From Pseudomonas sp. (lineage in GTDB: Bacteria; Pseudomonadota; Gammaproteobacteria; Pseudomonadales; Pseudomonadaceae): a stretch of DNA of 64,000 nucleotides. Positions within the stretch are counted from its first letter, which is position 1. Each line of letters starts with the position of its first letter. The translations under genes were made by a program, and so were the position numbers. The notes below the pieces were generated by a model that searched no databases, had not been told where the DNA came from, and saw only the letters and a list, made by a program, of their open reading frames with translations. The stretch lies in contig VMRT01000007.1 in NCBI GenBank assembly GCA_007713455.1, positions 248,001 through 312,000 on the forward strand, written 5' to 3'. Shown here in pieces: positions 783-14,884 of this stretch.

Positions 783-873
783 GACTAGGGTTCCGACTCG
801 TTGACGCGAGTGGCTGGTCCGAGAGTTGGCGACCTCCAGCGAGGTTACACGGCGGGATAAAAGCCCGGGAGAC
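783..873 (+). promoter_or_regulatory. Guanidine-I (ykkC) riboswitch, copy 1
   Basis: The conserved blocks occur in order: CTAGGGTTCCG at 785, a variable stem, CTGGTCCGAGAG near 815, a second variable stem, ACACGGCGGGATAAAAGC near 847 and CCCGGGAGA near 864. This is the ykkC aptamer that binds guanidinium. It lies in the leader of permease/ATPase/carboxyguanidine deiminase/carboxylase genes, its classical context. The expression platform is unclear: a short GCGTG/CACGC hairpin follows at 875-888 without a U-run. Confidence 0.93.
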
Positions 874-924
874 AGCGTGATTGCACGCAGCTCCTGCGCT
901 ATTCCCAACACTGGAGGGTTTGCC

Positions 925-1053
925 ATGTGCCCGCTCGAAACGGCTTTGCCGTTCTCCGCTCTGCCTTGTGCCAGGGCCTCTGCCGCACCCGAACTTCACA
1001 GTATTCCACCTGTTGCCGCGGCCGTTGCACGGGGCATCTGCCTATGCGTCTGA
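925..1053 (+). CDS. Possible 42-aa leader ORF between riboswitch and permease
   Basis: An ATG at 925 follows a strong Shine-Dalgarno (GGAGGG, about 6 nt away). The frame runs 42 codons and stops at 1053, overlapping the permease start at 1044 by 10 nt. The peptide is rich in Ala, Pro and Cys and resembles nothing I know. It sits where related operons usually have the periplasmic binding protein gene. It could be a translation-coupling leader peptide, a remnant or chance; only the ribosome-binding site and the overlap support it. Confidence 0.3.
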   Translation: MCPLETALPFSALPCARASAAPELHSIPPVAAAVARGICLCV

Positions 1054-1859
1054 TCAACCGCACTCCCGGACGTAGCGGCTGGTTGGCACTGGCAATTCTG
1101 CCCTTCGCCCTGCTGCTGGCGCTGTACCTGACCAACTCGGCCCAGCGCCTGGAACTGAACCCCAACGACAAGTTGCTGCCCAGCTTCGGCCAGATGAGCG
1201 CAGCCGTCGAACGCCTCGCTTTCACCCCCGACAAACGCTCCGGCGACTTCCTGTTCTGGCAGGACACCGCCTCCAGCCTCAAGCGCCTCGGCACCGGTCT
1301 TGCCATCGCGGCAGTGGCCGGCCTGTGCCTGGGTATCGTTGCCGGCACTCTGCCGCTGTTCAGCGCGCCGCTCTCGCCGTTGCTCACGGTGCTGTCGATG
1401 GTGCCACCGCTGGCGATCCTGCCGATTCTGTTCATCGTCTTCGGCCTGGGCGAACTGTCCAAAGTGATGCTGATCGTCATCGGTATCACGCCGATCCTGG
1501 CTCGTGACCTTGAACACCGAGCACGAGAAATCCCCCGCGAGCTGCTGATCAAGGCGCAAACCTTGGGCGCCAACACCTGGACCCTGATCCTGCGCCTGGT
1601 CCTGCCGCAGCTGATGCCGCGCCTGCTGATCAGCCTGCGCCTGGTGCTCGGTTCGGCCTGGCTGTTCCTCATCGCCGCCGAAGCCATCGCCTCCACCGAT
1701 GGCCTGGGCTACCGCATCTTTCTCGTGCGTCGCTACATGGCGATGGACGTGATCCTGCCCTATGTCGCCTGGATCACCCTACTGGCCTGGGCCATGGACT
1801 ACCTGCTGCGGCGCCTGACCCAGCTGCTGTTCCCCTGGTATGAAGGAGCCAAGGCATGA
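1044..1859 (+). CDS. ABC transporter permease, urea/guanidine carboxylase-associated
   Basis: Inner-membrane permease of the NitT/TauT type, expected to import guanidine or a close relative. The protein of about 271 aa has an N-terminal membrane segment (LALAILPFALLLALYL), a periplasmic stretch, then a core of five or six hydrophobic helices. The BPD_transp_1 loop that contacts the ATPase is seen as EIPRELLIKAQTLGA. ATG 1044 was chosen because its product starts just before the first membrane helix; an in-frame GTG at 927 would add 39 non-conserved residues. The stop overlaps the ATPase start by 4 nt. No binding-protein gene precedes it, unlike typical urea carboxylase clusters; the probable partner is encoded at 24585-25658. 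Confidence 0.88.
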   Translation: MRLINRTPGRSGWLALAILPFALLLALYLTNSAQRLELNPNDKLLPSFGQMSAAVERLAFTPDKRSGDFLFWQDTASSLKRLGTGLAIAAVAGLCLGIVAGTLPLFSAPLSPLLTVLSMVPPLAILPILFIVFGLGELSKVMLIVIGITPILARDLEHRAREIPRELLIKAQTLGANTWTLILRLVLPQLMPRLLISLRLVLGSAWLFLIAAEAIASTDGLGYRIFLVRRYMAMDVILPYVAWITLLAWAMDYLLRRLTQLLFPWYEGAKA

Positions 1860-2740
1860 GCGAGAACAACGCCAAGGCACCCGTTGCCGCACAGTCGAGC
1901 CAATGCACAACGCAACCAGGGACTCGCGCAGGCGGCGACCCCGGCTCCTTCATTCAGGTGAAGAACGTCTGGCAGCAGTACGGCGATCAGGTCGTGCTGG
2001 AGCGCCTGAACCTGAACATCGCTGAAGGCGAGTTCTGCACCCTGGTCGGTGCCTCCGGTTGCGGCAAATCCACCTTCCTGCGGCTGCTGCTCGGCCAGGA
2101 AGCGCCCAGCCGTGGCGAGATCCTGCTCGATGGCCAGCCGCTGGCCAACGAACCGGATGCCAGCCGCGGCGTGGTCTTTCAGCGCTACTCGGTATTTCCA
2201 CACCTGACCGTACTGGACAACGTCGCCCTCGGCCTGGAACTGCCGCGCGCCCCGCTACTGGGCCGTCTGCTTGGTCACCGCAAGCGCGATGCCCGCGAGC
2301 AGGCCGCGCAGATGCTGCACAAGGTCGGCCTCGGCCATGCGCTGGACAAGTACCCGGCGCAGCTCTCCGGCGGCATGCAACAGCGGCTGGCCATCGCCCA
2401 GGCGCTGATCATGAAGCCCCGGGTGCTGTTGCTGGACGAACCCTTCGGCGCGCTCGACCCCGGTATCCGCAAGGACATGCATGCGCTGCTGCTGGAGCTG
2501 TGGCGGGAGACCCGACTGACGGTGTTCATGGTCACCCATGACCTGTCGGAAGGCTTCACCCTCGGCAGCCGCATCCTGGTCTTCGACAAGCCGCGCATCG
2601 ACCCCCACGCCCCGGGCGCCTATGGCGCACGAGTGACCTACGACATTCCCTTGCACGAGGGCCGCCACGCGCCCGGCGCGGCCGCTGGCCTGCCGGCCAC
2701 CCTCAGCGAGAAATTCCGAACTGCCTACCAAGGAGCCTGA
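1856..2740 (+). CDS. ABC transporter ATP-binding protein, guanidine uptake
   Basis: ATPase subunit pairing with the permease at 1044-1859. Walker A is GASGCGKST, the signature is LSGGMQQR, Walker B is VLLLDEPFGALDP, and the switch histidine is in VTHDLSEG. At 294 aa it is longer than a minimal NitT/TauT ATPase because of about 35 extra N-terminal residues (Ser/Gln/Thr/Ala-rich) and a C-terminal tail. A later in-frame start is possible, but the ATG at 1856 overlaps the permease stop (ATGA), favouring translational coupling. The next gene begins 2 nt after its stop. Confidence 0.9.
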   Translation: MSENNAKAPVAAQSSQCTTQPGTRAGGDPGSFIQVKNVWQQYGDQVVLERLNLNIAEGEFCTLVGASGCGKSTFLRLLLGQEAPSRGEILLDGQPLANEPDASRGVVFQRYSVFPHLTVLDNVALGLELPRAPLLGRLLGHRKRDAREQAAQMLHKVGLGHALDKYPAQLSGGMQQRLAIAQALIMKPRVLLLDEPFGALDPGIRKDMHALLLELWRETRLTVFMVTHDLSEGFTLGSRILVFDKPRIDPHAPGAYGARVTYDIPLHEGRHAPGAAAGLPATLSEKFRTAYQGA

Positions 2741-2741
2741 C

Positions 2742-3470
2742 ATGAGCGCTTCACTCGCGATCCGCCCCACGCTGTACGAGGAAACCGTTCCCGGCGGCGG
2801 CCACACCTCCTTCGTCCTCAAGCGTGGCCAGCTGCTGCGCCTGACCGATCTGGAAGGCGGCGCCAACGTCAGCTTGATGCTGCTCAACGCCCAGGAGAAG
2901 AGCGAGCGGCTGAACCTGCCCGACACCCTCAAGTGCCAGCACACCGCCAAGCTCACCGCCGGTCATTGCCTCTACTCGGACATGGGCCGCGTACTCGCAG
3001 CCATCACCGCCGACACCTGCGGCTGGCACGACAGCTTTGGCGGCGTGCTGAACGCCGATGAAGTCGCCGAGAAATACGGCCAGGGCCGCTATCAGGAACT
3101 GCGCAACGGCTTCTTCCGCAACGGCACCGACAACCTGCTGGTGGAGATGGGCAAGTGGAACCTCAACCTGCAGGACCTGCTCATGGTGCTCAATCTGTTC
3201 AGCCGGGTGGACGTCACCGCCGACGGCACCTTTGCCTTCCACAGCGGCAATTCCAAAGCGGGCGACTACATCGAGTTGTACGCGCCAATGGACACCCTGG
3301 TGATCCTCACCGCCTTGCAGCATCCGCTGGACCCCAATCCGCTGTACGCACCCAAACCGGTGCAGCTGAGCTGGCACAAGGTCCAGAGCGATGGCATCAG
3401 CGTGCTCTGCCGCACTTCGCGTCCGGAGAACGGCCGCGGCTTCCACAACACCGAAAGACTCTACATCTGA
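2742..3470 (+). CDS. Carboxyguanidine deiminase subunit (urea carboxylase-associated protein 2, DUF1989)
   Basis: 242-aa DUF1989-family protein of the urea-carboxylase-associated type. Together with the next gene it is expected to form the zinc-dependent carboxyguanidine deiminase (CgdAB), converting carboxyguanidine to allophanate and ammonia. Visible family features are VPGGGHTSFVLKRGQLLRLTDLEG, the ADTCGWHDSFGG motif with Cys and His, and LNLQDLLMVLNLFSRV. It starts 2 nt after the ATPase stop. I do not assign the A or B letter because I cannot verify which subunit carries which name. Confidence 0.88.
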   Translation: MSASLAIRPTLYEETVPGGGHTSFVLKRGQLLRLTDLEGGANVSLMLLNAQEKSERLNLPDTLKCQHTAKLTAGHCLYSDMGRVLAAITADTCGWHDSFGGVLNADEVAEKYGQGRYQELRNGFFRNGTDNLLVEMGKWNLNLQDLLMVLNLFSRVDVTADGTFAFHSGNSKAGDYIELYAPMDTLVILTALQHPLDPNPLYAPKPVQLSWHKVQSDGISVLCRTSRPENGRGFHNTERLYI

Positions 3471-3483
3471 GGAGGTTGCCGAC

Positions 3484-4119
3484 ATGACCATCGTAGAAAG
3501 CAGCCTGCACCCCGAAACCGCCAGCTTCCGCCACCTGATCCCGGCCGGCGAGCCGTACCTGTTCGAAGTGAAGGCCGGACAGACCCTGCGCTTGCTGGAT
3601 GTCGACGGCAATCAAGCCATCGACACGTTGTTCTTCAGCGCGAAGAACCCGCGCGAACGCTTCGACCCGCAGCGCACCCTGCGCCGGCAGAACAAGGTCT
3701 ATCTCACCGCCGGCACGGTGTTGTATTCCAACCTCGGCAACCCCTTGCTGACCATCGTCGCCGACACCTGCGGTCGCCACGACACCCTCGGCGGCGCCTG
3801 CGCCCAGGAGAGCAACGTGGTGCGCTACGCCCTGGACAAGCGCTACATGCACAGCTGTCGCGACAATTTTCTGCGCGCCAGCCTGCACGACGGCCGTCTG
3901 GAGAAGCGCGACATCGGCGCCAACATCAACTTTTTCATGAACGTGCCGGTGACGCCCGAGGGCGGCCTGACCTTCGAGGACGGCCTTTCCGCACCGGGCA
4001 AGTACGTGGAGCTCAAGGCCGAGCAGGACGTGATCGTGCTGATCTCCAACTGCCCGCAACTGAACAACCCCTGCAACGGCTGGAACCCGACGCCCGCCGA
4101 GGTGCTGGTGTGGAACTGA
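3484..4119 (+). CDS. Carboxyguanidine deiminase subunit (urea carboxylase-associated protein 1, DUF1989)
   Basis: 211-aa DUF1989 protein, the second half of the predicted carboxyguanidine deiminase. Motifs parallel its neighbour: IPAGEPYLFEVKAGQTLRLLD, ADTCGRHDTLGG, the CRDNFLRA segment, GANINFFMNVPV and a Cys-rich C-terminal NCPQLNNPCNGWNPTP. The ATG at 3484 is preceded by GAGGAGG about 8 nt upstream. The conserved Cys/His pair in each subunit fits metal binding. The stop (TGA 4117-4119) overlaps an ATG by one base. Confidence 0.88.
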   Translation: MTIVESSLHPETASFRHLIPAGEPYLFEVKAGQTLRLLDVDGNQAIDTLFFSAKNPRERFDPQRTLRRQNKVYLTAGTVLYSNLGNPLLTIVADTCGRHDTLGGACAQESNVVRYALDKRYMHSCRDNFLRASLHDGRLEKRDIGANINFFMNVPVTPEGGLTFEDGLSAPGKYVELKAEQDVIVLISNCPQLNNPCNGWNPTPAEVLVWN

Positions 4120-4238
4120 TGCCGCTGTTACGACGCCACCTGCTGCCGCTGCTGCAGGCGCGCGCCGGGCAGCGGCCCGAGCTGCCGACAGCGAAGCAAC
4201 CCTCCCCAACCACGGACGGCCGTGGCGCAGATGAATAA
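4119..4238 (+). CDS. Possible 39-aa ORF between deiminase and carboxylase genes
   Basis: An ATG overlapping the deiminase stop (TGATG) opens a 39-codon frame ending TAA at 4238. The peptide is basic at the N-terminus (MPLLRRHLLPLLQARAG) and then Pro/Thr/Asp-rich. It fills most of the 158-bp gap before the carboxylase. I do not recognise it. It may be a small coupled protein or only a remnant. Confidence 0.25.
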   Translation: MPLLRRHLLPLLQARAGQRPELPTAKQPSPTTDGRGADE

Positions 4239-4277
4239 AGGCGGGACGGCCCGCCAGCCCTTCGAGGGTTACTGAAC

Positions 4278-7200
4278 ATGTTCGACAAACTTCTGATCGC
4301 CAACCGCGGCGCCATTGCCTGCCGCATCCTGCGTACGCTGCGCGCCCTGGATGTGAAAGGCGTGGCCGTCTACTCCGAGGCCGACGCCGCCAGCCTGCAT
4401 ATCCAGCAGGCCGACGAGGCCCACAGCCTGGGCGAAGGCCCGGCAGCGCAGACCTATCTGGTGGTGGAGAAGATTCTCCGCATCGCCCGGGAAACCGGCG
4501 CGAAAGCCATTCACCCCGGCTACGGCTTTCTCTCCGAGAACGCCGCCTTTGCCGAAGCCTGTGAAGCCGCCGGCATCGCCTTTGTCGGCCCGACGCCAGA
4601 ACAGCTGCGGGTGTTTGGCCTCAAGCACACCGCCCGCGCCCTGGCCAAACAACGCGGCGTACCGATGCTGGAGGGCACTGAGCTGCTCGACAGCCTTTCC
4701 GATGCCCTCGGCGCAGCCGAGCAGGTCGGCTACCCGGTGATGCTGAAAAGCACCGCCGGCGGTGGCGGTATCGGCATGCGCGTGTGCCGCTCGGCGGCGG
4801 AACTCGCTGAGGCCTTCGACGCGGTCAAGCGCCTGGGGCAGAACAACTTCAGCGATTCGGGCGTATTCATCGAGAAATACATCGAGCGCGCCCGCCATCT
4901 GGAAGTGCAGGTGTTCGGCGATGGTGCCGGCGACGTCATCGCCCTCGGCGTGCGCGACTGCTCGGTGCAGCGACGCAACCAGAAGGTGCTGGAGGAAACT
5001 CCGGCACCGAACCTACCGGCCGGCATGGCCGAGGCACTGTGCGAAGCGGCTATCACGCTGGCCAAGGCCGTCGACTACCGTAGCGCCGGCACCGTCGAGT
5101 TCGTCTACGACGCCGAGGCCCAGCGCTTCTACTTCCTCGAGGTGAACACCCGCCTGCAGGTCGAGCACGGCGTCACCGAGCAGGTCTGGGGCGTCGATCT
5201 GGTGCGCTGGATGATCGAGCTGGCCGCCGGCGACCTGCCGCCTCTGGCGGAGCTGACCAGGATGCTGAAGCCCAGCGGGCATTCGATCCAGGCGCGCGTC
5301 TATGCCGAAGACCCCGGCCGGGATTTCCAGCCGAGCCCCGGTTTGCTCACCGCCGCGAGCTTCCCGGCAGCCGACGGCAAGGCCCTGCGCGTCGATACCT
5401 GGGTCGAGGCTGGCTGCGAGATCCCGCCGTATTTTGACCCGATGATCGCCAAGGTCATCACCTGGGCGCCGAGCCGCGAGGAGGCTCGCCAAGCGCTTGA
5501 CGAGGCGCTCGGCGACACCCTGCTCTACGGCGTGGAAACCAACCGCGATTACCTGCGCCAGATCCTTGCCTTTACCCCGTTCGCCAGCGGCAACCCCTGG
5601 ACCCGCTGCCTGGAGGGTCTCAGCTACAAGGCCAATACCTTCGAGGTTATCAGCGCCGGCACCCAAACCACCGTACAGGACATCCCCGGCCGCCTTGGCT
5701 ACTGGGCGGTAGGCGTGCCGCCGTCCGGCCCGATGGACAGCCGCGCCCTGCGTCTGGGCAATGCCCTGCTCGGCAACGCCGAAGACGCCGCCGGGCTGGA
5801 AATCACCATGAGCGGGCCGATCCTGCGCTTCAACACCGACGCGGTGGTGGCGGTGACCGGCGCGGAAATACCGTTGAAGCTGGATGACGTGCCGCAGCCG
5901 ATGAGCACTGCGCTGTTCATCCCGGCCGGCAGCACCCTGACGATCGGCACCATCGCCGGCGCCGGTGCGCGGTCGTATCTGTGCGTGCGCGGCGGTCTGC
6001 AGGTGCCGGAGTATCTGGGCAGCAAGAGCACCTTTACCCTCGGCCAGTTCGGCGGCCACGGCGGCCGCGCCCTGCGTGCCGGCGACGTGCTGCATCTGGC
6101 ACCGCTGACCGACTCGTCTGCCGGCGCCACGCTGGCCGTCGAGCTGCGCAGCGCCCTGCCGGCGGTGCGCGAAATTCGCGTGATCTACGGCCCCCACGGT
6201 GCGCCGGAGTACTTCACCGAAGGCTATATCGAGCGCTTCTTCGCCACCGACTGGGAAGTGCACTTCAACTCCAGCCGCACCGGCGTGCGTCTCATAGGCC
6301 CGAAGCCCGAGTGGGTGCGCGAGAGCGGCGGCGAAGCCGGGCTGCACCCGTCGAATATCCACGACAACCCCTACGCCATCGGCGCGGTGGACTTCACCGG
6401 CGACATGCCGGTGATCCTCGGCCCGGACGGCCCGAGCCTGGGCGGCTTCGTCTGCCCAGTGACCATTATCGAGGCGGACCTGTGGCAGCTCGGGCAGCTT
6501 AAGGCAGGGGATAAAGTGCGCTTTGTCCCGGTGGATATCGCCACAGCGCGGGAGCTGGCAAGAGCCCGGCGCGAAGAGTGCGCGCTTGTCTCCCCTCTCC
6601 CTCCAGGAGAGGGGCCCAGGCGGCCCGCGATCGGGGTGAGGGCTGTTTCAACCGACAGCAAAAGCCCCTCACCCCAGCCCTCTCCCGGGGGGAGAGGGGG
6701 CATTTACGCGCAGTCTGCGGAATATGCGCTCACCTCCCCCATCGTCCTCGACCTCGGCCAGGACGACACCCGTCTGGTCGCCCGACTCTCCGGCGACACC
6801 CATCTGCTGCTAGAAATCGGCGCGCCGGAACTGGACCTGGTGCTGCGCTTCCGCGGCCATGCGCTGATGCAGGCGTTGGAAGCCAAGGGACTCGACGGCG
6901 TCATCGACCTCACACCCGGCATCCGTTCGCTGCAAGTCCACTACCAGCCGGAAACCCTGCCGCTGGCCGTGCTGCTGGAAACAGTCGCCGGCCTGTGGGA
7001 CGCAGTGTGCGCCGCGCAGGATCTCAAAGTCCCCTCGCGCATCATCCACCTGCCGCTGTCCTGGGACGACCCGGCTTGCCAGCTGGCGATCGAGAAGTAC
7101 ATGACCACGGTCCGCAAGGACGCGCCCTGGTGCCCGAGCAACCTGGAGTTCATCCGTCGCATCAACGACCTGCCGAACCTCGACGAGGTGTACCGCACGG

Positions 7201-7982
7201 TGTTCGAGGCCAGCTATCTGGTGATGGGCCTGGGCGACGTCTACCTCGGCGCGCCGGTGGCCACCCCGCTGGACCCGCGCCACCGTCTGGTCACCACCAA
7301 GTACAACCCGGCGCGCACCTGGACCGCCGAGAACTCGGTGGGCATTGGCGGCGCCTACATGTGCGTCTATGGCATGGAAGGCCCGGGCGGCTACCAGTTC
7401 GTCGGTCGCACCCTGCAGATGTGGAACCGCTACCGCGCGCTCGAGGCGTTCGGCGGCCAGCCCTGGCTGCTGCGTTTTTTCGACCAGATCCGTTTCTACC
7501 CGGTCAGCGCCGAGGAGCTCCTGAAGATTCGCCGCGACTTCCCGCTGGGCCGCTACCCGCTGAAGATCGAGGAGACCGAGCTGTGCCTCTCCGACTACCA
7601 GGATTTCTTGGTCAAGGAAGCCGAAGGCATCGAAGCCTTCCGCAGCCAGCAACGCGCCGCCTTCGACGCCGAGCGCCAGCGCTGGATCGAATCGGGGCTG
7701 GCGCATTTCGAGAGCGAGGAAGTAGCGGCCGATCTCGGTGAAGACGCCCCGCTTGGCGCGGGTGAGCACGGCATCGAAAGCCATATCGCCGGCAATCTCT
7801 GGCAGGTGTCGGTGGCCGAGGGAGCGCGCGTGGCTGCCGGCGACGTGCTGGTGATCCTTGAGAGCATGAAGATGGAAATTCCGCTCATCGCTCCGGTCGC
7901 CGGGGTGGTGAAGGACATCCGTGTGCAACCCGGCTCCCCGGTGCGCGCCGGCCAACGGGTGGTGGTGATCGAGGAGGTTTGA
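4278..7982 (+). CDS. Biotin-dependent guanidine (urea) carboxylase
   Basis: ATP- and biotin-dependent carboxylase; in clusters with DUF1989 pairs and a guanidine-I riboswitch this family carboxylates guanidine better than urea. It has 1234 aa. Residues 1-450 are biotin carboxylase (MFDKLLIANRGAIACRI, ATP-grasp KSTAGGGGIGMRV, EVNTRLQVEHGVTE). Residues 455-765 and about 815-1130 are the AHS2- and AHS1-like carboxyltransferase halves. Residues 1160-1234 are the biotinyl domain with ESMKMEIP. Between the two carboxyltransferase halves, residues 770-810 are Pro/Gly-rich and encoded by an inserted REP/BIME element. Substrate preference is inferred from context; residues distinguishing urea from guanidine enzymes were not checked. 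Confidence 0.92.
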   Translation: MFDKLLIANRGAIACRILRTLRALDVKGVAVYSEADAASLHIQQADEAHSLGEGPAAQTYLVVEKILRIARETGAKAIHPGYGFLSENAAFAEACEAAGIAFVGPTPEQLRVFGLKHTARALAKQRGVPMLEGTELLDSLSDALGAAEQVGYPVMLKSTAGGGGIGMRVCRSAAELAEAFDAVKRLGQNNFSDSGVFIEKYIERARHLEVQVFGDGAGDVIALGVRDCSVQRRNQKVLEETPAPNLPAGMAEALCEAAITLAKAVDYRSAGTVEFVYDAEAQRFYFLEVNTRLQVEHGVTEQVWGVDLVRWMIELAAGDLPPLAELTRMLKPSGHSIQARVYAEDPGRDFQPSPGLLTAASFPAADGKALRVDTWVEAGCEIPPYFDPMIAKVITWAPSREEARQALDEALGDTLLYGVETNRDYLRQILAFTPFASGNPWTRCLEGLSYKANTFEVISAGTQTTVQDIPGRLGYWAVGVPPSGPMDSRALRLGNALLGNAEDAAGLEITMSGPILRFNTDAVVAVTGAEIPLKLDDVPQPMSTALFIPAGSTLTIGTIAGAGARSYLCVRGGLQVPEYLGSKSTFTLGQFGGHGGRALRAGDVLHLAPLTDSSAGATLAVELRSALPAVREIRVIYGPHGAPEYFTEGYIERFFATDWEVHFNSSRTGVRLIGPKPEWVRESGGEAGLHPSNIHDNPYAIGAVDFTGDMPVILGPDGPSLGGFVCPVTIIEADLWQLGQLKAGDKVRFVPVDIATARELARARREECALVSPLPPGEGPRRPAIGVRAVSTDSKSPSPQPSPGGRGGIYAQSAEYALTSPIVLDLGQDDTRLVARLSGDTHLLLEIGAPELDLVLRFRGHALMQALEAKGLDGVIDLTPGIRSLQVHYQPETLPLAVLLETVAGLWDAVCAAQDLKVPSRIIHLPLSWDDPACQLAIEKYMTTVRKDAPWCPSNLEFIRRINDLPNLDEVYRTVFEASYLVMGLGDVYLGAPVATPLDPRHRLVTTKYNPARTWTAENSVGIGGAYMCVYGMEGPGGYQFVGRTLQMWNRYRALEAFGGQPWLLRFFDQIRFYPVSAEELLKIRRDFPLGRYPLKIEETELCLSDYQDFLVKEAEGIEAFRSQQRAAFDAERQRWIESGLAHFESEEVAADLGEDAPLGAGEHGIESHIAGNLWQVSVAEGARVAAGDVLVILESMKMEIPLIAPVAGVVKDIRVQPGSPVRAGQRVVVIEEV
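6592..6700. repeat. REP/BIME element inserted in frame in the carboxylase gene
   Basis: Two palindromic REP-like arms, CCCCTCTCCCT...AGGAGAGGGG at 6592-6614 and one beginning CCCCTCACCCCAGCCC at 6665-6700, face each other in opposite orientation. They match the repeats at 8008-8043 and 8133-8781. The element is translated as a low-complexity Pro/Gly/Ser stretch and keeps the frame. Confidence 0.8.
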
Positions 7983-8007
7983 GAGCTATGGTCTTTGCCG
8001 ACCATTT

Positions 8008-8043
8008 CCCCCTCACCCTAGCCCTCTCCCTCAGGGAGAGGGG
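8008..8043. repeat. Single REP-like palindrome
   Basis: A palindromic element of the form CCCCTCACC...CCCTCTCCC, loop, GGGAGAGGGG lies 26 bp after the carboxylase stop. It is the same family as the elements inside the carboxylase gene and in the array that follows. Confidence 0.75.
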
Positions 8044-8132
8044 ACCGGTTCGGCGCGGCTCCGGGGCTGGACATCGACGCAGCTCGCGCATTGCCATGAG
8101 CCGCGTAACGAACTCTCAGCGCCTGCGATACG

Positions 8133-8781
8133 AAAGCAACGCCGGACCAAAAGACCATCAGCAACACCGAATCAACCCCCTCGCCCGTTGGGAAGAGGAC
8201 TGGGGAGAGGGGAAAGAGGCCCAACCAAGTTCCTCTGCCACGACATACCACAGGCTCCGGACTAACAGCACCAAAGCAACGCCAGACCACAAAGACCACC
8301 AGCAACACCGGATCAACCCCCTCGCCCCTTTGGGGAGAGGGCTGGGGTGAGGGGAAGAGACCCAACCAGATGCCTCGCCACGAAACACACCAAAGGCTCC
8401 GGACTAACAGCACCAAAGCAACGCCAGATCACAAAGACCGCCAGCAACACCGGATCAACGCCCTCGCCCCTTTGAGGAGAGGACTGGGGTGAGGGGAAAG
8501 AGGCCCAACCAAGTTCCTCCGCCACGACGTACCAAAGGCTCCGGACTGACAGCACTAAAGCAACGCCGGACCACCAGACCGCCAGCAACACCGAATCAAC
8601 CCCCTCGCCCCTTTGGGGAGAGGGCTGGGGTGAGGGGAAAGAGGCCCAACCAAGTTCCTCCGCCACGACGTACCAAAGGCTCCGGACTAACAGCACTAAA
8701 GCAACGCCGGACCACCAGACCGCCAGCAACACCGGATCAACCCCCTCGCCCCTTTGGGGAGAGGGCTGGGGTGAGGGGAAA
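8133..8781. repeat. Tandem array of ~141-bp units each carrying a REP-like palindrome
   Basis: Units anchored on AAAGCAACGCC start at 8133, 8273, 8415, 8557 and 8698, giving four complete copies of 140-142 bp and a fifth of about 84 bp. Each carries a CCCTCGCCC...GGGGAGAGGG palindrome and the phrase GAGGCCCAACCA. The last two full copies are nearly identical; the first is the most diverged, which fits recent expansion at the 3' side. The array fills most of the 866-bp gap between carboxylase and hydrolase genes. Long open frames across it are by-products of the repeat. Confidence 0.9.
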
Positions 8782-8848
8782 CGGCCGCCAGCCTGACCTG
8801 AATCCCGACCGCCCGAACAGACCAGGCCTGCCACAGAGGAAGCCAACC

Positions 8849-10651
8849 ATGACGACCCATTTCGATCTTAGCCTCGACACGCTGCGCAATGCCTATGAAG
8901 CCGGCACCACGACCCCGCGCCAGCTGATCCTCGAACTGCACGCCAAGGCCGCAGAACTGAACGGCGAATTCAACGCCTTTATCCACCTGCTGAGCGTCGA
9001 AGAACTCGAGCCCTACCTGACCGCACTGGAGAACAAGACGCCAAACAAGCTGCCGCTCTACGGCATCCCCTTCGCCATCAAGGACAACATCGACCTGGCC
9101 GGCATTCCCACCACCGCCGCCTGCCCGGCCTTTGCCTACACACCTCAAACCAGCGCCACCATCGTCGAGCAGTTGATCGCCCTCGGTGCCGTGCCGCTAG
9201 GTAAGACCAACCTCGACCAATTCGCCACCGGCCTCAACGGCACCCGCTCGCCCTATGGCGAGTGCCGCAACAGTGTGCGCCCCGACTACCCGTCCGGTGG
9301 CTCCAGCGCCGGCTCATCCCTGGCCGTGGCACTGGGCCTGTGCACCTTTGCCCTGGGCACCGACACCGCAGGCTCCGGCCGCGTGCCGGCGGCGCTGAAC
9401 AACCTGGTGGGCCTCAAGGCCAGCAAGGGCCTGATCTCCACCGCCGGCGTCGTCCCCGCCTGCCGCACGCTGGATTGCGTGACCTTCTTCACCGCCACAG
9501 CGGCCGAAGCCAGCCAGCTGCTGGCGCTCACTGCCAGGCTCGATCCGCGTGACGAATACAGCCGCGCCAACCCGCTGTGGAACGACGGCTCGGCCTTCGG
9601 CCAGGTGAAGTCCTTTCGCTTCGGCGTACCGAAGCAGCTCGAGTTCCTCGGCTGCCCGGAAAGTCCGGCGCTGTTCGCCGCCACCATTGAGCAGCTAAAA
9701 GCCATCGGTGGCGAGCCAGTTGAAGTGGACTTTTCGCCCTTTCTCGAAGCCGCGCGCCTGCTCTACGAAGGCCCCTGGGTCGCCGAACGCTATAGCGTGG
9801 CGGGCGAGCTGATCGAGCAGCAGCCCGACGCCGTCCTGCCGGTGATAAAGGCGGTACTGGAAAAGGCACCGGGCACCACCGCCGTGCAACTGTTCCAGGC
9901 GCAATACCGCCTGCAGCAGCTGAAGGCCATCTGCGACCGGATCATGGCCGAGGTCGATTGCGTACTGACGCCCGCGTACCCGCGCCCGGTGACGCTCGTC
10001 GAGCTTCACGCCGAACCGGTCAAGCGCAACTCGGACCTGGGCTACTACACCAACTTCATGAACATGCTGGATTACGCCGCCGTGGCTGTACCTGCCGGCG
10101 TTATGGAGAACGAGCTGCCCTGGGGCGTGACGCTGTTCGGCCGTGTGTTCACCGACCAGTACCTGCTGAGCCTGGCCGATGCACTGCAACGCCGGACCGG
10201 CCTGGCGCTGGTGGGCAGCAATGCGATCACAACACCTGCCCCGCAGAATCCGGCGCGCAACGACCGGACGAGAGTGGTGGTCTGCGGCGCGCACCTCGAT
10301 GGCCTGCCGCTGAACTGGCAACTTCGCCAGCGCGGCGGTCGGCTGCTAGAGGCAACCACCAGCAGCGCGGCGTACAAGCTCTACGCCCTGGCCGGCGGCC
10401 CGCTGTTACGCCCGGGGATGGTGCGCGTCGCCGAGGGTGGGACGGCCATCGCCGTGGAAGTCTGGGACATCCCCAGCAGCGAGCTGGGCTCGTTCCTCAC
10501 CGGCATCCCGGCGCCGCTGGGCCTGGGCAAGGTGGAGGTAGAAGACGGGCGCTGGGAAACCGGGTTTATCTGCGATGCTTACGGCCTTGACGGCGCCGAG
10601 GACATCACCCACTTCGGCGGCTGGAAGGCTTGGCTGGCGCAGCGGGGTTGA
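8849..10651 (+). CDS. atzF: Allophanate hydrolase
   Basis: 600-aa amidase-signature enzyme hydrolysing allophanate to ammonia and CO2, the last step of guanidine breakdown here. The Ser-cisSer-Lys machinery is visible as AIKDNIDLAG (Lys), SGGSSAGSS (cis-Ser) and TDTAGSGR (nucleophile region). A C-terminal domain of about 150 aa (RVVVCGAHLDGLPLNWQL onward) is typical of full-length AtzF. ATG 8849 has GAGGAAG upstream; the frame stays open further 5' only because it runs into the repeat array. Whether it is cotranscribed with the carboxylase through the array is uncertain. Confidence 0.93.
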   Translation: MTTHFDLSLDTLRNAYEAGTTTPRQLILELHAKAAELNGEFNAFIHLLSVEELEPYLTALENKTPNKLPLYGIPFAIKDNIDLAGIPTTAACPAFAYTPQTSATIVEQLIALGAVPLGKTNLDQFATGLNGTRSPYGECRNSVRPDYPSGGSSAGSSLAVALGLCTFALGTDTAGSGRVPAALNNLVGLKASKGLISTAGVVPACRTLDCVTFFTATAAEASQLLALTARLDPRDEYSRANPLWNDGSAFGQVKSFRFGVPKQLEFLGCPESPALFAATIEQLKAIGGEPVEVDFSPFLEAARLLYEGPWVAERYSVAGELIEQQPDAVLPVIKAVLEKAPGTTAVQLFQAQYRLQQLKAICDRIMAEVDCVLTPAYPRPVTLVELHAEPVKRNSDLGYYTNFMNMLDYAAVAVPAGVMENELPWGVTLFGRVFTDQYLLSLADALQRRTGLALVGSNAITTPAPQNPARNDRTRVVVCGAHLDGLPLNWQLRQRGGRLLEATTSSAAYKLYALAGGPLLRPGMVRVAEGGTAIAVEVWDIPSSELGSFLTGIPAPLGLGKVEVEDGRWETGFICDAYGLDGAEDITHFGGWKAWLAQRG

Positions 10652-10853
10652 GATAGCGAAACCACTTATCTGGCTGTAAGCGGTAAGGAGCGAAACGCAG
10701 CCAGTGAGAAATGAATGCGCGGGACTGACCAACAACTATGCATCTGGTACATCCCGCGCAGCGCTCGATAGCGATACAGCGCCTAAACGGCAGCTCCTAT
10801 AACGCCGGTCAGGTAGCCATCTCGGGCCAGGGTGTGCGCATCCAGTCCTCGCG

Positions 10854-12166
10854 CTAGTCTTCGTCGCTGCTGCGGCGCCTCGGCAAAGCCTCGTCCAGCG
10901 CTGACCCTCCCTCTCGCAACACGACTTGATGAACCCCCGGACCAGGCAGCGCGACCCCCGAAGCGCGCAACGCCTCAATCAGGTTTGCCCGCACACGCGA
11001 GGCGGTGAGCATGAAGTCCGACCGGCGCGAGTCGCACCAGAATTGCACCTGAAAGGCGAGCTCGCTCTGGCCCATCTCGCGTATCGCCACTGTGGGTGGT
11101 GGCTCGGCGATGACTCCTTCAGCACCCCGGGCTGCCTCCTTGAGCACGCTCATTACCTGTGGCAGATCGACTTCGTAGCCGAGGTAGCAGATCACCTGAC
11201 CACGGCGCACCGGCGCAGCGGTGTTGTTGGTGACCCGCGAGGTAAAGGTTTCCGCATTCGGCACCAGGACCCGGCGTCCGTCGTAGGTGCGGATCTGCGT
11301 GGCACGCAGTTCGATGCGCTCCACGCTGCCCTCGGTGTCGCCGATGATGATCTGGTCGCCGAGCTGGAACGGTCGCAAGGTGAGGATCAGCAGGCCGCTG
11401 ACAAAGTTGGAAAGGATATCCTTGAGGGCGAATCCGAGCGCCAGGCTGGTCAGCCCGAGGCCTGTGGCGAGCGTCCCGGGTTCGAGACCAAAGGCGGTGG
11501 CAGCGACGATCAGCCCCAGCAGCCAGACGGTGTAGTAACTGACCTGCTTGATCAGGTTCTCCACCGTCCGATCGCGTATCAGTCGATGGGAGATCAACCG
11601 GACCCCTGCCCGCACACTCGCAGCCAATGCCCAGAACACGCCGATCACCAGAAGCGCCGCCAGTGCTCGCGGCACGATGCTGATGGCCGCTTCCAGCAGC
11701 CGAGCGAAGGCAGTATCGACGCTGGCGCGCACGTCGGTCACGAAGCGCGCTCGCTCCGACGTCCGCCGTGTGCTGGCCTGCGCCTTGCAGTTTCGAGAAC
11801 CGACGCCCACTCGCGCGCCTGCGCCTCGAGCGCCCGGCCGTTGGCTTGGGCATCCTCCTCCGTGACCTGCATCAGGATGCGCCCAGCCATGGTGATCTGG
11901 CGCGCCTCGGCGTTTTCCCCGGCCGGCGCGATGCGCGCCCTGCTTATGCCCTGCGGGGTTTCCAAGACCGTCAGCAATTGCCGCTCTATCTGCCGAGCCC
12001 GCAGGCGCGCCTCCAGCTCCTCGGTTCCGCCAATACGAAACAGCGCGCGGCCGTCGAGCCGCACCGTCGCCAAACCATCATCCACCTGCGCGGTCGCGGG
12101 CAATGAGGCAAACACGGCGAGCAGCACCAGCAGCACGGCCATCGGCAGATGCATCAGTCGAGTCAT
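10854..12166 (-). pseudogene. Mechanosensitive channel (MscS family), frameshifted
   Basis: Two overlapping frames make one MscS-like protein. The upstream frame (ATG 12166) has a signal peptide ending near LPATAQ and a periplasmic helical domain; it ends at 11738. The downstream frame, in use from about 11790 to 10854, encodes membrane helices, the pore-helix motif LTSLALGFALKDILSNFVSG, the beta-domain LRPFQLGDQI and a cytoplasmic tail. The frames join within ETA/KAQASTRRTSERARF, and a one-base insertion near 11786 would restore a continuous protein of about 437 aa. This is a real frameshift or a sequencing error. The gene is convergent with atzF, and the strand opposite the flanking operons suggests an insertion between them. 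Confidence 0.75.
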
Positions 12167-12246
12167 GAAAAGAGATATTGCGGCAGGAGCGCTCCCCTGG
12201 GCCGACCGATGTGCCATCTGCGACCCAGGGTGCATACGCGTGCGTG

Positions 12247-12333
12247 TCAGAAGATCAGGGCAAAGAGGCCGATGACCACGATCAGGCCGATCAGAAAGAT
12301 GATGCCAATGGTGCTACCTAGAAACTTCAGCAT
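12247..12333 (-). CDS. Small single-pass membrane peptide (28 aa)
   Basis: A 28-codon ORF starting MLKFLGSTIG, followed by one uninterrupted hydrophobic helix of Ile/Leu/Val/Gly/Phe. GGGAG lies 7 nt before the ATG. It is just upstream of the channel gene on the same strand, so the two may be cotranscribed. Function unknown. Confidence 0.5.
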   Translation of the reverse strand: MLKFLGSTIGIIFLIGLIVVIGLFALIF

Positions 12334-12579
12334 GTGATGGCTCCCGTTTTTCGTGAGTTCATCAGTTCCGACTGGCAGGCACCTCCATCGTTCAAGGTTT
12401 TCGCCGACCAGTACATCTCGCGACTGTATCCCGATCGTCATTAAGACGCGCCGCAGCACCATTCGGGAGCGCCCTTTCAGAAATTGACCTGCATCCGAGC
12501 ATGCCCGCCGCTCAACAAAAAGCCTCGTGCCGCAACGGACGCGCCGTACCACGCGGGCTTGCCGAGCTTGCACGGCATC

Positions 12580-12595
12580 TGGCACGCAACCTGCT
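12580..12595 (+). promoter_or_regulatory. Sigma-54 (-24/-12) promoter of the second riboswitch operon
   Basis: TGGCACG, 4 nt, CTGCT matches the RpoN consensus at every position except the first T of the -12 element. The predicted start near 12606 leaves about 67 nt before the second guanidine-I aptamer. A possible half NtrC site (GCACCA) lies about 120 bp upstream, near 12456; it is weak. Confidence 0.65.
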
Positions 12596-12672
12596 CTATC
12601 CCACGTGAACGGGATGAGTCGCCACCGGCACTCATGACGCTTGGCACAAAACAAAGGAGCAGCTTCAAGGAG

Positions 12673-12766
12673 AACTAGGGTTCCGGCTCACAGGGAGTGG
12701 GCGCTGGTCCGAGAGTTCTCCGGTCCCAGGGACGGGACTACACGGAGGGATAAAAGCCCGGGAGAC
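12673..12766 (+). promoter_or_regulatory. Guanidine-I (ykkC) riboswitch, copy 2
   Basis: CTAGGGTTCCG at 12675, CTGGTCCGAGAG near 12704, ACACGGAGGGATAAAAGC near 12740 and CCCGGGAGA near 12757 repeat the conserved blocks of copy 1 in the same order. The variable stems differ, so the two copies are diverged paralogues. The gene behind it is a NMT1-type binding protein heading an eleven-gene run with no obvious guanidine carboxylase components. Confidence 0.93.
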
Positions 12767-12815
12767 GCGATGTCATCCCGTGCCTTGTCATTCCAATGTG
12801 TAGGGAAATCACGCC

Positions 12816-13817
12816 ATGTCCACACTGCGCTCGCTGAACAAGACCCTCCTCGCCGCCGGCCTCGCCGTTGCGACCTTGATTTCACCGCTGGCCAGCCAGG
12901 CCGCCGAGAAGCTGAGGATCGGCACCGTGGTCTGGGCCGGCTACGGCCCCTTCTACGTCGCCGACAAGAAAGACCTGTTCAAGCCCCATGGCCTGGATGT
13001 AGACCTGCAGTTCTTCAACGACCCTGCACTGATCCCCACCGCCATGCTCAGCCGCGCGCTGGACGGCGGCATGCTCACCTACGACCAGGTAGTGGCCTCG
13101 GTCGCCAAGGGCTTGAAGCATCGCGTGGTGATGCCCATCGACTTCTCCAACGGCGGTGACGCCATCGTCGCCGATGCCTCGGTTCAGTCGGTCGCCGACT
13201 TCAAAGGCAAGAAGGTCGGCTTCAATCCGCTGTCGCCCTCGGACTTCCTGCTGGCCTATGCGCTGCAGCAGAACGGCATGAACGACAAGGACATCGACGC
13301 CGTCAACATGACCCCGGAAGGCATCCCTGGCGCCATGGCCTCGGGCAACCTGCCGATCGGCGTGACCTACGAGCCCAACGTCTCGCAGATTCTCTCCATG
13401 GGCGGCGGCGACAAGTTCAAGGTCGTCTATTCGTCCAAGGACGCCCCCGGCCTGATCACCGACGTGCTGGTCTTCGACGAGGCGGTGATCGCCAAGAAGC
13501 CCGCCGCCATCAAGGCGATGATCCAGGGCTATCTCGACGGCCTGGCCTACATGCAGGCGCACCCCGAGGAGTCGGCTGAGATCATCTGCGAGGTGCTCGG
13601 CGTCAGCGCCGAAGAAGCCGTCGAGCAGATGGCCGGCGCCTACAACATCCCGCTCGCCGAGATGGGCAAGAGCTTCACGCCAGGTGACGACACCCATTCC
13701 TTCCATGGCAGCGGCGCGATCATCGCCAAGCTGCTCAAGGACAACGGGCAGATTCCGACCATCCCGGACTTCAGCAAGACCTACGACGCCCAGTTCACCG
13801 AAGCGCTCGCCCAGTAA
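12816..13817 (+). CDS. ABC transporter substrate-binding protein (NMT1/THI5-like)
   Basis: Periplasmic binding protein of 333 aa. The signal peptide is clear (KTLLAAGLAVATLISPLASQAAE, cleavage near residue 29). The mature part begins KLRIGTVVWAGYGPFYVADKKDLFKPHGLDVDLQFF, the NitT/TauT/NMT1 fold opening. It is first after riboswitch 2 and heads the run ending with permease (20306) and ATPase (21181), its likely partners. The ligand is unknown; riboswitch control argues for a guanidino compound. Confidence 0.88.
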   Translation: MSTLRSLNKTLLAAGLAVATLISPLASQAAEKLRIGTVVWAGYGPFYVADKKDLFKPHGLDVDLQFFNDPALIPTAMLSRALDGGMLTYDQVVASVAKGLKHRVVMPIDFSNGGDAIVADASVQSVADFKGKKVGFNPLSPSDFLLAYALQQNGMNDKDIDAVNMTPEGIPGAMASGNLPIGVTYEPNVSQILSMGGGDKFKVVYSSKDAPGLITDVLVFDEAVIAKKPAAIKAMIQGYLDGLAYMQAHPEESAEIICEVLGVSAEEAVEQMAGAYNIPLAEMGKSFTPGDDTHSFHGSGAIIAKLLKDNGQIPTIPDFSKTYDAQFTEALAQ

Positions 13818-13861: not shown

Positions 13862-14884
13862 ATGACTGCCAAACCCCTGTACCGCTATGCCGATGGCCGC
13901 CTGCCCAACACGCTGGCCATTCTCTATACCGCGCTTGCCTACGGCGGCGGCCTGGCCCTGCTGTTCGCCGGCGACGGCTGGTTGAACGCGCTGGGCACGT
14001 TGCTGCTGGCCCACGGCATGATCATCGCCGCCTACCTGATCCACGAATTCGCCCATGGCGCCATCTTCAGCGTGCCCAAGCACAACGAATGGGCCGGCAA
14101 CGTCTGCAGCTGGCTGTGCGGCAGCTGCTACGCCGAGTTTCAGGACCTGCGCAAGAAGCACATGCGCCACCACGTCGACCGCGCCGACGTGATCACCTTC
14201 GACAGCAAGGCCTTTCTCAAGGCGCGCCCCGTATGGTTCCAGAAACTGGTACTGGCGCTGGAATGGGCCTATGTGCCGGCGGTGGAGCTGATCATGCATT
14301 TCTACGTGATTGCCCTGCCCTTTATCACCGACAACGACAAGCACCGCGCCCGCCGTGGCAAGGTCGCCGCTGTGCTGGCCATCCGCACGCTGCTTTTTGC
14401 CGGGCTCGCGGTGCTTTCGCTGAAGGCCGTGCTGCTCTACACCGTGGCCTGGATGATCATGATCAGCGTGCTGCGTTTCGCCGATGCCTATCAGCACACC
14501 TACGAGGCTTTCGCCGTGCTGGAAGATGGCGGCAAGCTGCCGGAGGACAAGCGCCGCGACCGCAGCTACGAGCAGCAGAACACCTACAGCAACGTGGTTT
14601 CCGAGCGCTGGCCGGTGCTGAATCTGCTGCTGTTGAATTTCTCCTTCCACAACGCCCACCACGAAAAGCCGGTGGCGCCCTGGTATCGCCTGCCGAGGCT
14701 GCACGCCGAGCTGTACGGCAGCACCTACAACCAGGTGATTCCGATGCGCAAGCTGCTCGGCAGCTTCCACCGCTACCGCGTACGCCGCGTGCTGGACGAT
14801 GACTACGGCGTAGTCAGCGAAGGGCCGCACAAGGCCGACAACTTCTACGGCGCCGTGGGCGTCTCCTTCCTGACGGCGGTGTGA
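13862..14884 (+). CDS. Membrane di-iron fatty acid desaturase/hydroxylase-like protein
   Basis: 340-aa integral membrane protein of the desaturase/AlkB hydroxylase superfamily, which uses O2 and two irons. Three histidine boxes are present: HEFAH near residue 62, HMRHH near 100 and HNAHH near 265, with four hydrophobic segments between. ATG 13862 follows GGAG by 6 nt. No ferredoxin or reductase is adjacent, so the electron donor is not encoded here. In a guanidine-controlled operon the substrate is more likely a guanidino compound than a lipid: carbon hydroxylation next to nitrogen would release an aldehyde and a smaller guanidine. That role is inference. SDR genes follow after 1 nt. Confidence 0.85.
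   Translation: MTAKPLYRYADGRLPNTLAILYTALAYGGGLALLFAGDGWLNALGTLLLAHGMIIAAYLIHEFAHGAIFSVPKHNEWAGNVCSWLCGSCYAEFQDLRKKHMRHHVDRADVITFDSKAFLKARPVWFQKLVLALEWAYVPAVELIMHFYVIALPFITDNDKHRARRGKVAAVLAIRTLLFAGLAVLSLKAVLLYTVAWMIMISVLRFADAYQHTYEAFAVLEDGGKLPEDKRRDRSYEQQNTYSNVVSERWPVLNLLLLNFSFHNAHHEKPVAPWYRLPRLHAELYGSTYNQVIPMRKLLGSFHRYRVRRVLDDDYGVVSEGPHKADNFYGAVGVSFLTAV

Follow-up and report, generated by a model that had tools for sequence, protein, structure and literature searches.

What do two diverged guanidine-I riboswitches control when they stand about 12 kb apart on one Pseudomonas contig, and which second signal, if any, acts together with guanidine? The DNA considered here, called the window below, is a stretch of 64,000 nucleotides of Pseudomonas sp. 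(GCA_007713455.1, contig VMRT01000007.1, positions 248,001 to 312,000), in which each aptamer precedes an operon (operon 1 and operon 2). An earlier reading of the letters alone (the sequence-only reading) had placed both aptamers behind -24/-12 promoters and had proposed dual nitrogen and guanidine control of the two operons within one guanidine-nitrogen regulon. Taken as a whole, the best explanation offered by our computational analysis, which we consider fairly probable, is a two-operon nitrogen-acquisition regulon with two inputs in series, in which operon 2 would release guanidine for operon 1.

Guanidine-I riboswitches and their predicted sigma-54 promoters

The riboswitches and promoters of the window are the following, all on the + strand.

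774 to 873, +: guanidine-I riboswitch aptamer 1 (RF00442, Rfam, 91.2 bits, full model length)
12664 to 12766, +: guanidine-I riboswitch aptamer 2 (RF00442, Rfam, 86.4 bits, full model length)
4208 to 4254, +: guanidine-II riboswitch inside operon 1, directly 5' of the carboxylase gene (RF01068, Rfam, 41.6 bits, full model length)
712 to 727, +: predicted sigma-54 promoter 1 (-24/-12), TGGCATCGCTCTTGCT, 10/12, GG-N10-GC, predicted start about 738 (consensus scan and conservation)
12580 to 12595, +: predicted sigma-54 promoter 2 (-24/-12), TGGCACGCAACCTGCT, 11/12, GG-N10-GC, predicted start about 12606 (consensus scan and conservation)

Both guanidine-I aptamers, first placed at 783-873 and 12673-12766, exceed the RF00442 gathering score of 63 bits, have the conserved blocks in common and differ in their stem bases, as the sequence-only reading had said, and they are the only guanidine-I matches reported in the whole genome. 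That reading counted the two guanidine-I aptamers correctly but overlooked the guanidine-II aptamer (RF01068 cut-off 32 bits, two hairpins), of which a second match lies elsewhere in the genome (G000:C23), and it did not recognise operon 2 as a probable guanidine-releasing pathway. Its term "island" is loose: 25 of the 56 genus genomes surveyed carry two copies 9-13 kb apart on one contig. A guanidine-I match is present in 35 of the 56 and passes the cut-off in 34, which leaves 22 with none that passes it. In one genome (G003, locus L034; L numbers denote the loci compared), three guanidine-I aptamers, each accompanied by a sigma-54 site, lie within about 17 kb, and one of them splits operon 1.

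A proof of the promoters from the window alone was rejected, because the -24/-12 consensus matched 18 times against 15.9 expected, that is, at chance level and without enrichment; the weight of the two sites therefore comes only from comparison. Among 67 guanidine-I matches of the genus, 66 were tested, one truncated match below the cut-off being omitted, and a -24/-12 site within 130 nt of the aptamer was present with at least 9/12 consensus positions in 64, at least 10/12 in 63 and at least 11/12 in 50. The three copies below 10/12 comprise one degenerate site (9/12) and two genomes with the operon 2 site farther upstream. For the other genera of the family, 44 loci were taken (the 24 best-scoring and 20 picked for spread), in 43 of which the aptamer pattern recognised 49 aptamers, with none in L129; every one of the 49 is accompanied within 250 nt by a site matching 9/12 or better, which in 41 reaches 11/12. 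The background in random 250-nt windows of the fetched loci was 10%, 4% and 3% for 9, 10 and 11 matches, respectively. Outside the family but within the same class, 28 of the 29 guanidine-I matches listed were examined, and sites of at least 9/12, 10/12 and 11/12 precede 27, 24 and 15 of them; the sole miss, L197, concerns an aptamer that lies within an operon (L230). Five of these 27 copies have the site as close as 7-18 nt to the aptamer boundary, which would place the transcription start at about the aptamer itself. The controls behaved differently from the guanidine-I copies: the thiamine pyrophosphate (TPP) riboswitches of the genus gave one site at 9/12 in 20 and none at 10 (one of 21 was unplaceable and dropped), and ten guanidine-II loci, some of them intra-operon, gave two at 9/12 and none at 10.

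The claim of a -24/-12 promoter ahead of each aptamer is thus borne out through conservation among relatives, and both sites are predicted to be conserved sigma-54 promoters. The predicted starts lie 45 and 67 nt 5' of the aptamers as first placed (36 and 58 nt from the Rfam boundaries), in keeping with the proposed spacing of 45-70 nt. No sigma-70 promoter-like site was found in 690-1060 or 12560-12830.

NtrC-like sites upstream of the promoters

To score candidate enhancers 5' of the sigma-54 sites, we used the dyad consensus TGCACY-N5-RGTGCA. The best sites of the window are these:

641 to 657, +: NtrC-like dyad, 9/12, 71 nt 5' of -24/-12 site 1, near where relatives have stronger sites (dyad scan)
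12455 to 12471, +: NtrC-like dyad, 9/12, 125 nt 5' of promoter 2, at a position used by relatives (dyad scan)

Loose matches in the window were rejected as proof, being at chance level (177 found, 184 expected). Before the dyads of relatives were counted, regions were excluded if they lacked a sigma-54 site or offered under 300 nt of upstream sequence. A dyad of at least 10/12 is present in 60% of 121 distinct upstream regions, versus 4% of shuffled and 8% of random sequence, and, when the regions are grouped by the 8-mers they share, in 55 of the resulting 80 clusters, which still include related species, versus 9.6% of random windows. Furthermore, the 59 dyad positions within 150 nt are periodic at 10.9 nt, with an R of 0.634 that no permutation out of 2000 reached; such a ladder is expected of an activator that must bind the helix from one side.

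NtrC control of urea-carboxylase genes has already been published: in the ntrC mutant of Burkholderia cenocepacia H111 under nitrogen limitation, a urea carboxylase gene is reported as down 6-fold, and the neighbouring genes of a urea-carboxylase-related periplasmic protein and aminomethyltransferase, also of lower expression, are listed without a ratio, owing to the read number of the mutant (PMC5491218). A sigma-54 regulon survey predicted 102 sigma-54-controlled genes in COG3665, of which 59% carry the name urea carboxylase (PMC12316311). Given the conserved sigma-54 sites, the phased NtrC-like dyads and the B. cenocepacia data, the dual nitrogen and guanidine control put forward by the sequence-only reading appears well supported, with NtrC as the most likely activator in this strain.

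Operon 1 and linked genes

The genes of operon 1, and two genes linked to it farther downstream, are all on the + strand:

1044 to 1859, +: ABC permease, operon 1 (profile search)
1856 to 2740, +: ABC ATPase, operon 1 (profile search)
2742 to 3470, +: UAAP1 (TIGR03425; 329 bits, cut-off 206)
3481 to 4119, +: UAAP2 (TIGR03424; 319 bits, cut-off 285)
4278 to 7982, +: urea/guanidine carboxylase (TIGR02712; 1860 bits)
8849 to 10651, +: allophanate hydrolase (846 bits)
23198 to 24562, +: type III glutamine-synthetase-like ligase, linked, separate unit (profile search)
24585 to 25658, +: substrate-binding protein TIGR03427, downstream, likely partner of the operon 1 transporter (513.6 bits, cut-off 333.9)

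UAAP1 and UAAP2 are presumably the subunits of carboxyguanidine deiminase (carboxyguanidine-hydrolysing), and by its gene content operon 1 is the known guanidine carboxylase pathway. The combination of a guanidine-I riboswitch at the operon start with a guanidine-II riboswitch before gca is a published arrangement, with the genes cgdA/B, gca and atzF (PMC12508155). The TIGR03427 gene is separated from its presumed permease and ATPase and adjoins the type III glutamine-synthetase-like gene and a TetR regulator. No acceptable sigma-54 site precedes the glutamine-synthetase-like gene at 23198, where a near match has GG for GC at -12. Between the carboxylase and allophanate hydrolase genes (8133-8781), a 141-bp unit is present in 4.6 tandem copies, and on the - strand at 12247-12354 there is a small open reading frame (ORF) that is weakly YohP-like (membrane protein; 20 bits, below the cut-off).

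Operon 2 and its MgdL-family protein

Operon 2 follows aptamer 2 on the + strand:

12816 to 13817, +: ABC substrate-binding protein, SsuA/NMT1 type (profile search; 94.4 bits against TIGR03427, below the cut-off of 333.9)
13862 to 14884, +: fatty-acid-desaturase-family protein (PF00487), predicted membrane hydroxylase, His boxes invariant (profile search)
14886 to 15674, +: short-chain dehydrogenase A (profile search)
15674 to 16429, +: short-chain dehydrogenase B (profile search)
16426 to 17310, +: EamA-family transporter (profile search)
17307 to 18068, +: creatininase (TIGR04448; 385 bits, equivalog cut-off 235)
18065 to 18724, +: biuret-hydrolase-like cysteine hydrolase (BiuH NF050097, 272.8 bits, below the equivalog cut-off of 370)
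18721 to 19503, +: MBL-fold hydrolase, lactonase-like (profile search)
19500 to 20309, +: MgdL-family protein, predicted N-(hydroxyalkyl)guanidine lyase, D41-L-R43 invariant (homology, synteny, motif)
20306 to 21184, +: ABC permease, operon 2 (profile search)
21184 to 22026, +: ABC ATPase, operon 2 (profile search)

The protein encoded at 19500 (orf 19500) has no Pfam or NCBIfam match, and a PDB sequence search with its family gave none; the nearest named loci, at 97-99% in this protein, are records of Stutzerimonas kunmingensis, S. xanthomarina, S. chloritidismutans and S. stutzeri, and Stutzerimonas is very probably the genus of the window. Matches at E of at most 0.01 occur in 10 of 369 class genomes, the window's own included, three of these being weak and dropped; in all, four weak matches (E 0.001 to 0.007, three of the four with internal stop codons) were discarded. 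A homologue lies directly 3' of a 2-oxoglutarate-Fe(II) (2OG-Fe(II)) oxygenase gene in L151 and L152, both gca operons, and in L153, outside one. L152 has, in order, guanidine-I, importer, UAAP1, UAAP2, guanidine-II, carboxylase, oxygenase, homologue, further genes (ABC-transporter ATPases among them) and allophanate hydrolase, and the L152 homologue is 30% identical to orf 19500 (pairwise E 9e-21). In the published layout mgdH and mgdL lie between gca and atzF, and D49 and R51 are reported as the catalytic residues of MgdL (PMC12508155). A D-L-R motif is invariant in all ten aligned members, as D41-L-R43 in orf 19500 and with D49 and R51 in the L152 protein. Since the homology with L152 fits the mgdH-mgdL layout and the D49/R51 motif, we assign orf 19500, compared with MgdL through the published layout and residues, to the family of MgdL, the N-(hydroxymethyl)guanidine lyase (UniProt A0A265DXW6).

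The putative hydroxylase of operon 2 matches PF00487 only and lacks the 2OG-Fe(II) oxygenase domain of MgdH; its histidine boxes are kept throughout an alignment of 15 rows, which represent 14 distinct genes because L032 and L084 are the same one, and a PDB sequence search gave no solved-structure match. It is weakly similar to GntB, the guanitoxin L-arginine gamma-hydroxylase (NF041365; E 1.6e-4, 21 bits), but falls far below the NF041365 cut-off of 380 bits. Ten homologues at E of at most 1e-40 were found among 368 other class genomes, outside the genus, and seven of the ten have a guanidine riboswitch in their stretch: a guanidine-I copy in L147, L149 and L224; a guanidine-II copy directly 5' of the hydroxylase gene in L225, L226 and L230, the last of which also has two guanidine-I copies; and, in L228, a guanidine-II copy before the carboxylase of a carboxylase operon. 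An open-access literature search returned no report tying this desaturase-family oxygenase to guanidine, and an apparent link of a fatty acid desaturase to ykkC in PMC2211319 was rejected, the passage being about the B12 riboswitch and another COG.

The nine-gene set, from the binding protein through the hydroxylase, two dehydrogenases, EamA, creatininase, BiuH and MBL genes to MgdL, recurs in one order in a different family (L149), where EamA is 39% and MgdL 38% identical and the other seven are 54-68% identical. A core form, consisting of riboswitch, binding protein, hydroxylase, MgdL-like protein, permease and ATPase, stands alone in L060 and L062, where no creatininase, short-chain dehydrogenase, BiuH, MBL or EamA gene was found in the cluster. 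A further copy is that of L077 (Tepidiphilus succinatimandens), where identity is 88-96% in the operon 2 genes, 86-93% in operon 1 up to the carboxylase and 76% in the TIGR03427-type binding protein; lateral transfer is suggested, because a non-pseudomonad keeps the operons at such high identity.

Leaders between the predicted sigma-54 start and the first gene

The leader features considered below are, again on the + strand:

748 to 753, +: leader segment complementary to 887-892 (6 bp, not significant in this copy)
887 to 892, +: post-aptamer partner of 748-753 (complementarity)
12609 to 12617, +: leader segment complementary to 12773-12781 (9 bp, complementarity; 7-bp equivalent in L060)
12773 to 12781, +: post-aptamer partner of 12609-12617 (complementarity)
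925 to 1053, +: leader ORF of 42 codons, the first cistron after riboswitch 1, with a 10-nt overlap with the permease start (ORF comparison)

Both aptamers resemble the RF00442 (ykkC) model in score and conserved blocks, but differ from it in having no intrinsic terminator-like site nearby (690-1060 and 12560-12830 were searched) and in the complementarity, as a set, of leader and post-aptamer segments. The helix score of leader versus post-aptamer segment, taken over 24 clusters from 99 rows, is 19.7 for matched and 16.1 for mismatched pairs (permutation p 2e-4), and a 20-cluster contiguous-helix version gives Fisher p 5e-4, with 6 of the 20 singly at shuffle p<0.05 and 2 of the 20 against crossed pairs. 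Thermodynamic duplex energies were set aside as poorly discriminating (50 of 69 below shuffled, 48 of 69 below crossed pairs), and the contiguous-helix scores were used instead. The 7-bp equivalent occurs in a locus, L060, whose operon 2 proteins are 46-78% identical to those of the window; the folding of the second leader is not more stable than its shuffles (z -0.68). The leader started by sigma-54 may take part in the switch.

Where riboswitch 1 copies precede the permease, a leader ORF of 25-42 codons and variable sequence overlaps the permease start in all 30 recognised cases, by 10 nt in 27; in the other three, a start 16 nt before the ORF end is found first. In L033, L059 and L061 the binding-protein gene occupies the place of the leader ORF. 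We take the overlap as predicted translational coupling of the permease to the riboswitch, with the leader ORF perhaps serving as a ribosome landing pad where the binding-protein gene is missing.

Proposed regulation and pathway

The model that we favour can be stated as follows. Under nitrogen shortage, sigma-54 RNA polymerase, together with an enhancer-binding protein that is most likely NtrC, would start both transcripts, and guanidine would then bind the guanidine-I aptamer in the leader and allow expression of the first cistron. Operon 1, with its ABC importer, UAAP1/UAAP2, carboxylase and allophanate hydrolase, would convert guanidine to ammonia, with the additional guanidine-II switch acting at the carboxylase start. 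The importer of operon 2 would take up an N-substituted guanidine, the desaturase-family hydroxylase would oxidise the carbon adjoining a guanidine nitrogen, and the MgdL-family protein would cleave the resulting hemiaminal to guanidine; the latter would induce both operons and be consumed by operon 1. The sequence itself shows the aptamers, the conservation of the promoters, the phased enhancer sites of relatives, the family membership and the synteny; NtrC as activator in this strain, the mode of riboswitch control, and the reactions and substrate of operon 2 are what we infer.

A coordinated guanidine-nitrogen regulon makes biochemical sense because operon 2 encodes an MgdL-family protein, and release of guanidine from an N-substituted guanidine fits because a guanidine switch precedes the importer, oxygenase and MgdL-family protein. 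In Vreelandella boliviensis, the guanidine-II switch is reported to respond equally to guanidine and methylguanidine, and guanidine-I to guanidine only (PMC12508155); since its guanidine-II switch responds to methylguanidine too, the core would most simply act on methylguanidine. In the longer form, the creatininase, dehydrogenases and amidases may make this compound available from creatinine or a similar ring.

Points against this model and alternative explanations

Several observations weigh against the model. On the side of regulation, the best NtrC-like sites of the window itself reach only 9/12, and a term search of the main text of an NtrC study of Pseudomonas stutzeri A1501 (PMC8443478) returned neither guanidine nor urea carboxylase nor allophanate. 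In two genus genomes the sigma-54 site of operon 2 lies about 230 nt 5' of the aptamer instead of about 70, and the near-complete copy of L077 has guanidine-II but no guanidine-I over the cut-off. The guanidine-I aptamer of L152 has no sigma-54 site of at least 9/12 within 200 nt, so the coupling of guanidine-I to sigma-54 is not universal. On the side of the pathway, the published MgdL is specific for N-(hydroxymethyl)guanidine (PMC12508155), and the AlphaFold model of orf 19500 is too poor for use, also as regards the beta-barrel fold of the MgdL family, with a predicted local distance difference test (pLDDT) score of 43.5. Moreover, the two key genes are not always together: MgdL-family genes occur without a recognised hydroxylase in L148, L150 and L086-L089 (other Pseudomonas, 55-57% identical), and the hydroxylase without a recognised MgdL gene in L224 to L231. 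No guanidine riboswitch over the cut-off was found in L086-L089 (18.7 kb) or in L148, L150 and L153 (20 kb), although L148 nonetheless has UAAP1, UAAP2 and carboxylase genes nearby; likewise, the hydroxylase homologues L227, L229 and L231 have none in 20 kb. The model is made slightly less probable by six more MgdL-family loci in which an Rfam scan showed no guanidine riboswitch.

The most serious competitor concerns the substrate of operon 2, which would be creatinine or a related cyclic guanidine and not methylguanidine: the hydroxylase, dehydrogenases, creatininase, biuret-hydrolase-like amidase and MBL hydrolase would open and trim the ring, and the MgdL-family protein would split a ring or acyl hemiaminal. 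The creatininase, well above its equivalog cut-off, matches solved creatininases at E about 1e-77, and the set that bears it keeps its order in a different family (L149). However, because the form of L060 and L062 lacks the ring-opening genes in its cluster, the core need not open a ring, and the creatininase-like matches in L148, L227 and L230 are only 26-30% identical, so that we regard this alternative as rather unlikely. Sigma-54 control could also be real but exerted through an enhancer-binding protein other than NtrC, as the weak dyads of the window and the 25 of 80 clusters without a site of at least 10/12 might suggest; the phased dyads in most clusters and the Burkholderia ntrC mutant (PMC5491218) speak for NtrC, and no enhancer-binding-protein gene was found among the operon proteins searched, which were not an exhaustive annotation of the window. 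We consider such a substitution improbable.

EamA proteins form a drug/metabolite transporter family, and operon 2 might accordingly be read as serving guanidine detoxification or export instead of assimilation. Guanidine riboswitches are also described as most widely tied to the exporter genes sugE/emrE (PMC7736828). Against this stand the ABC importer with its substrate-binding protein, the MgdL-family protein and the sigma-54 promoter of operon 2, as well as the core-form clusters, where the EamA gene was not found; export is, in our judgement, very improbable. We therefore retain the model of a nitrogen-acquisition regulon in which operon 2 would feed guanidine into operon 1.

Relation to known systems and significance

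The closest described system is the gca operon of V. boliviensis with mgdH-mgdL (PMC12508155), which shares with the window a guanidine-I riboswitch at the start, a guanidine-II riboswitch before gca, the ABC importer, cgdA/B, gca, atzF and an MgdL-family gene with a D-x-R motif fitting D49/R51. The window differs in that its MgdL-family gene belongs to a separate operon, which has a guanidine-I switch and an importer to itself, and in that its oxygenase belongs to the desaturase family (PF00487), whereas MgdH is a 2-oxoglutarate dioxygenase. The locus with the V. boliviensis-type layout (L152) also has no sigma-54 site, unlike the window. With regard to nitrogen control, the B. cenocepacia study (PMC5491218) and the sigma-54 survey (PMC12316311) likewise place carboxylase-type genes under NtrC (measured) or sigma-54 (predicted), but the word guanidine has no occurrence in the main text of either, riboswitch appears only in one reference title, and the two controls are not joined there.

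A 2025 review describes three bacterial guanidine synthesis pathways (PMC12186494), and the authors of PMC12508155 state that they are aware of no enzymatic source of methylguanidine. Operon 1 is a known system; operon 2 is a little-known pathway and the new part of the locus. More tentatively, and with somewhat less than even confidence, we suggest that operon 2 encodes a way of producing guanidine that has not been described. Here a membrane di-iron hydroxylase of the desaturase family, whose gene in some other bacteria directly follows a guanidine-II riboswitch, would replace the 2-oxoglutarate dioxygenase MgdH as partner of an MgdL-family lyase, the longer form starting from creatinine or a related cyclic guanidine and so providing an enzymatic source of methylguanidine or guanidine. 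At the same strength we suggest that in the Gammaproteobacteria guanidine-I riboswitches are usually read from sigma-54 promoters, with the leader as part of the switch.

The natural sources of guanidine are a standing question, and a second type of oxygenase beside an MgdL-family lyase would add a route that could be tested with two proteins. Moreover, the frequent pairing of guanidine-I riboswitches with sigma-54 promoters in this class suggests that the riboswitch serves opportunistic nitrogen supply and not detoxification.

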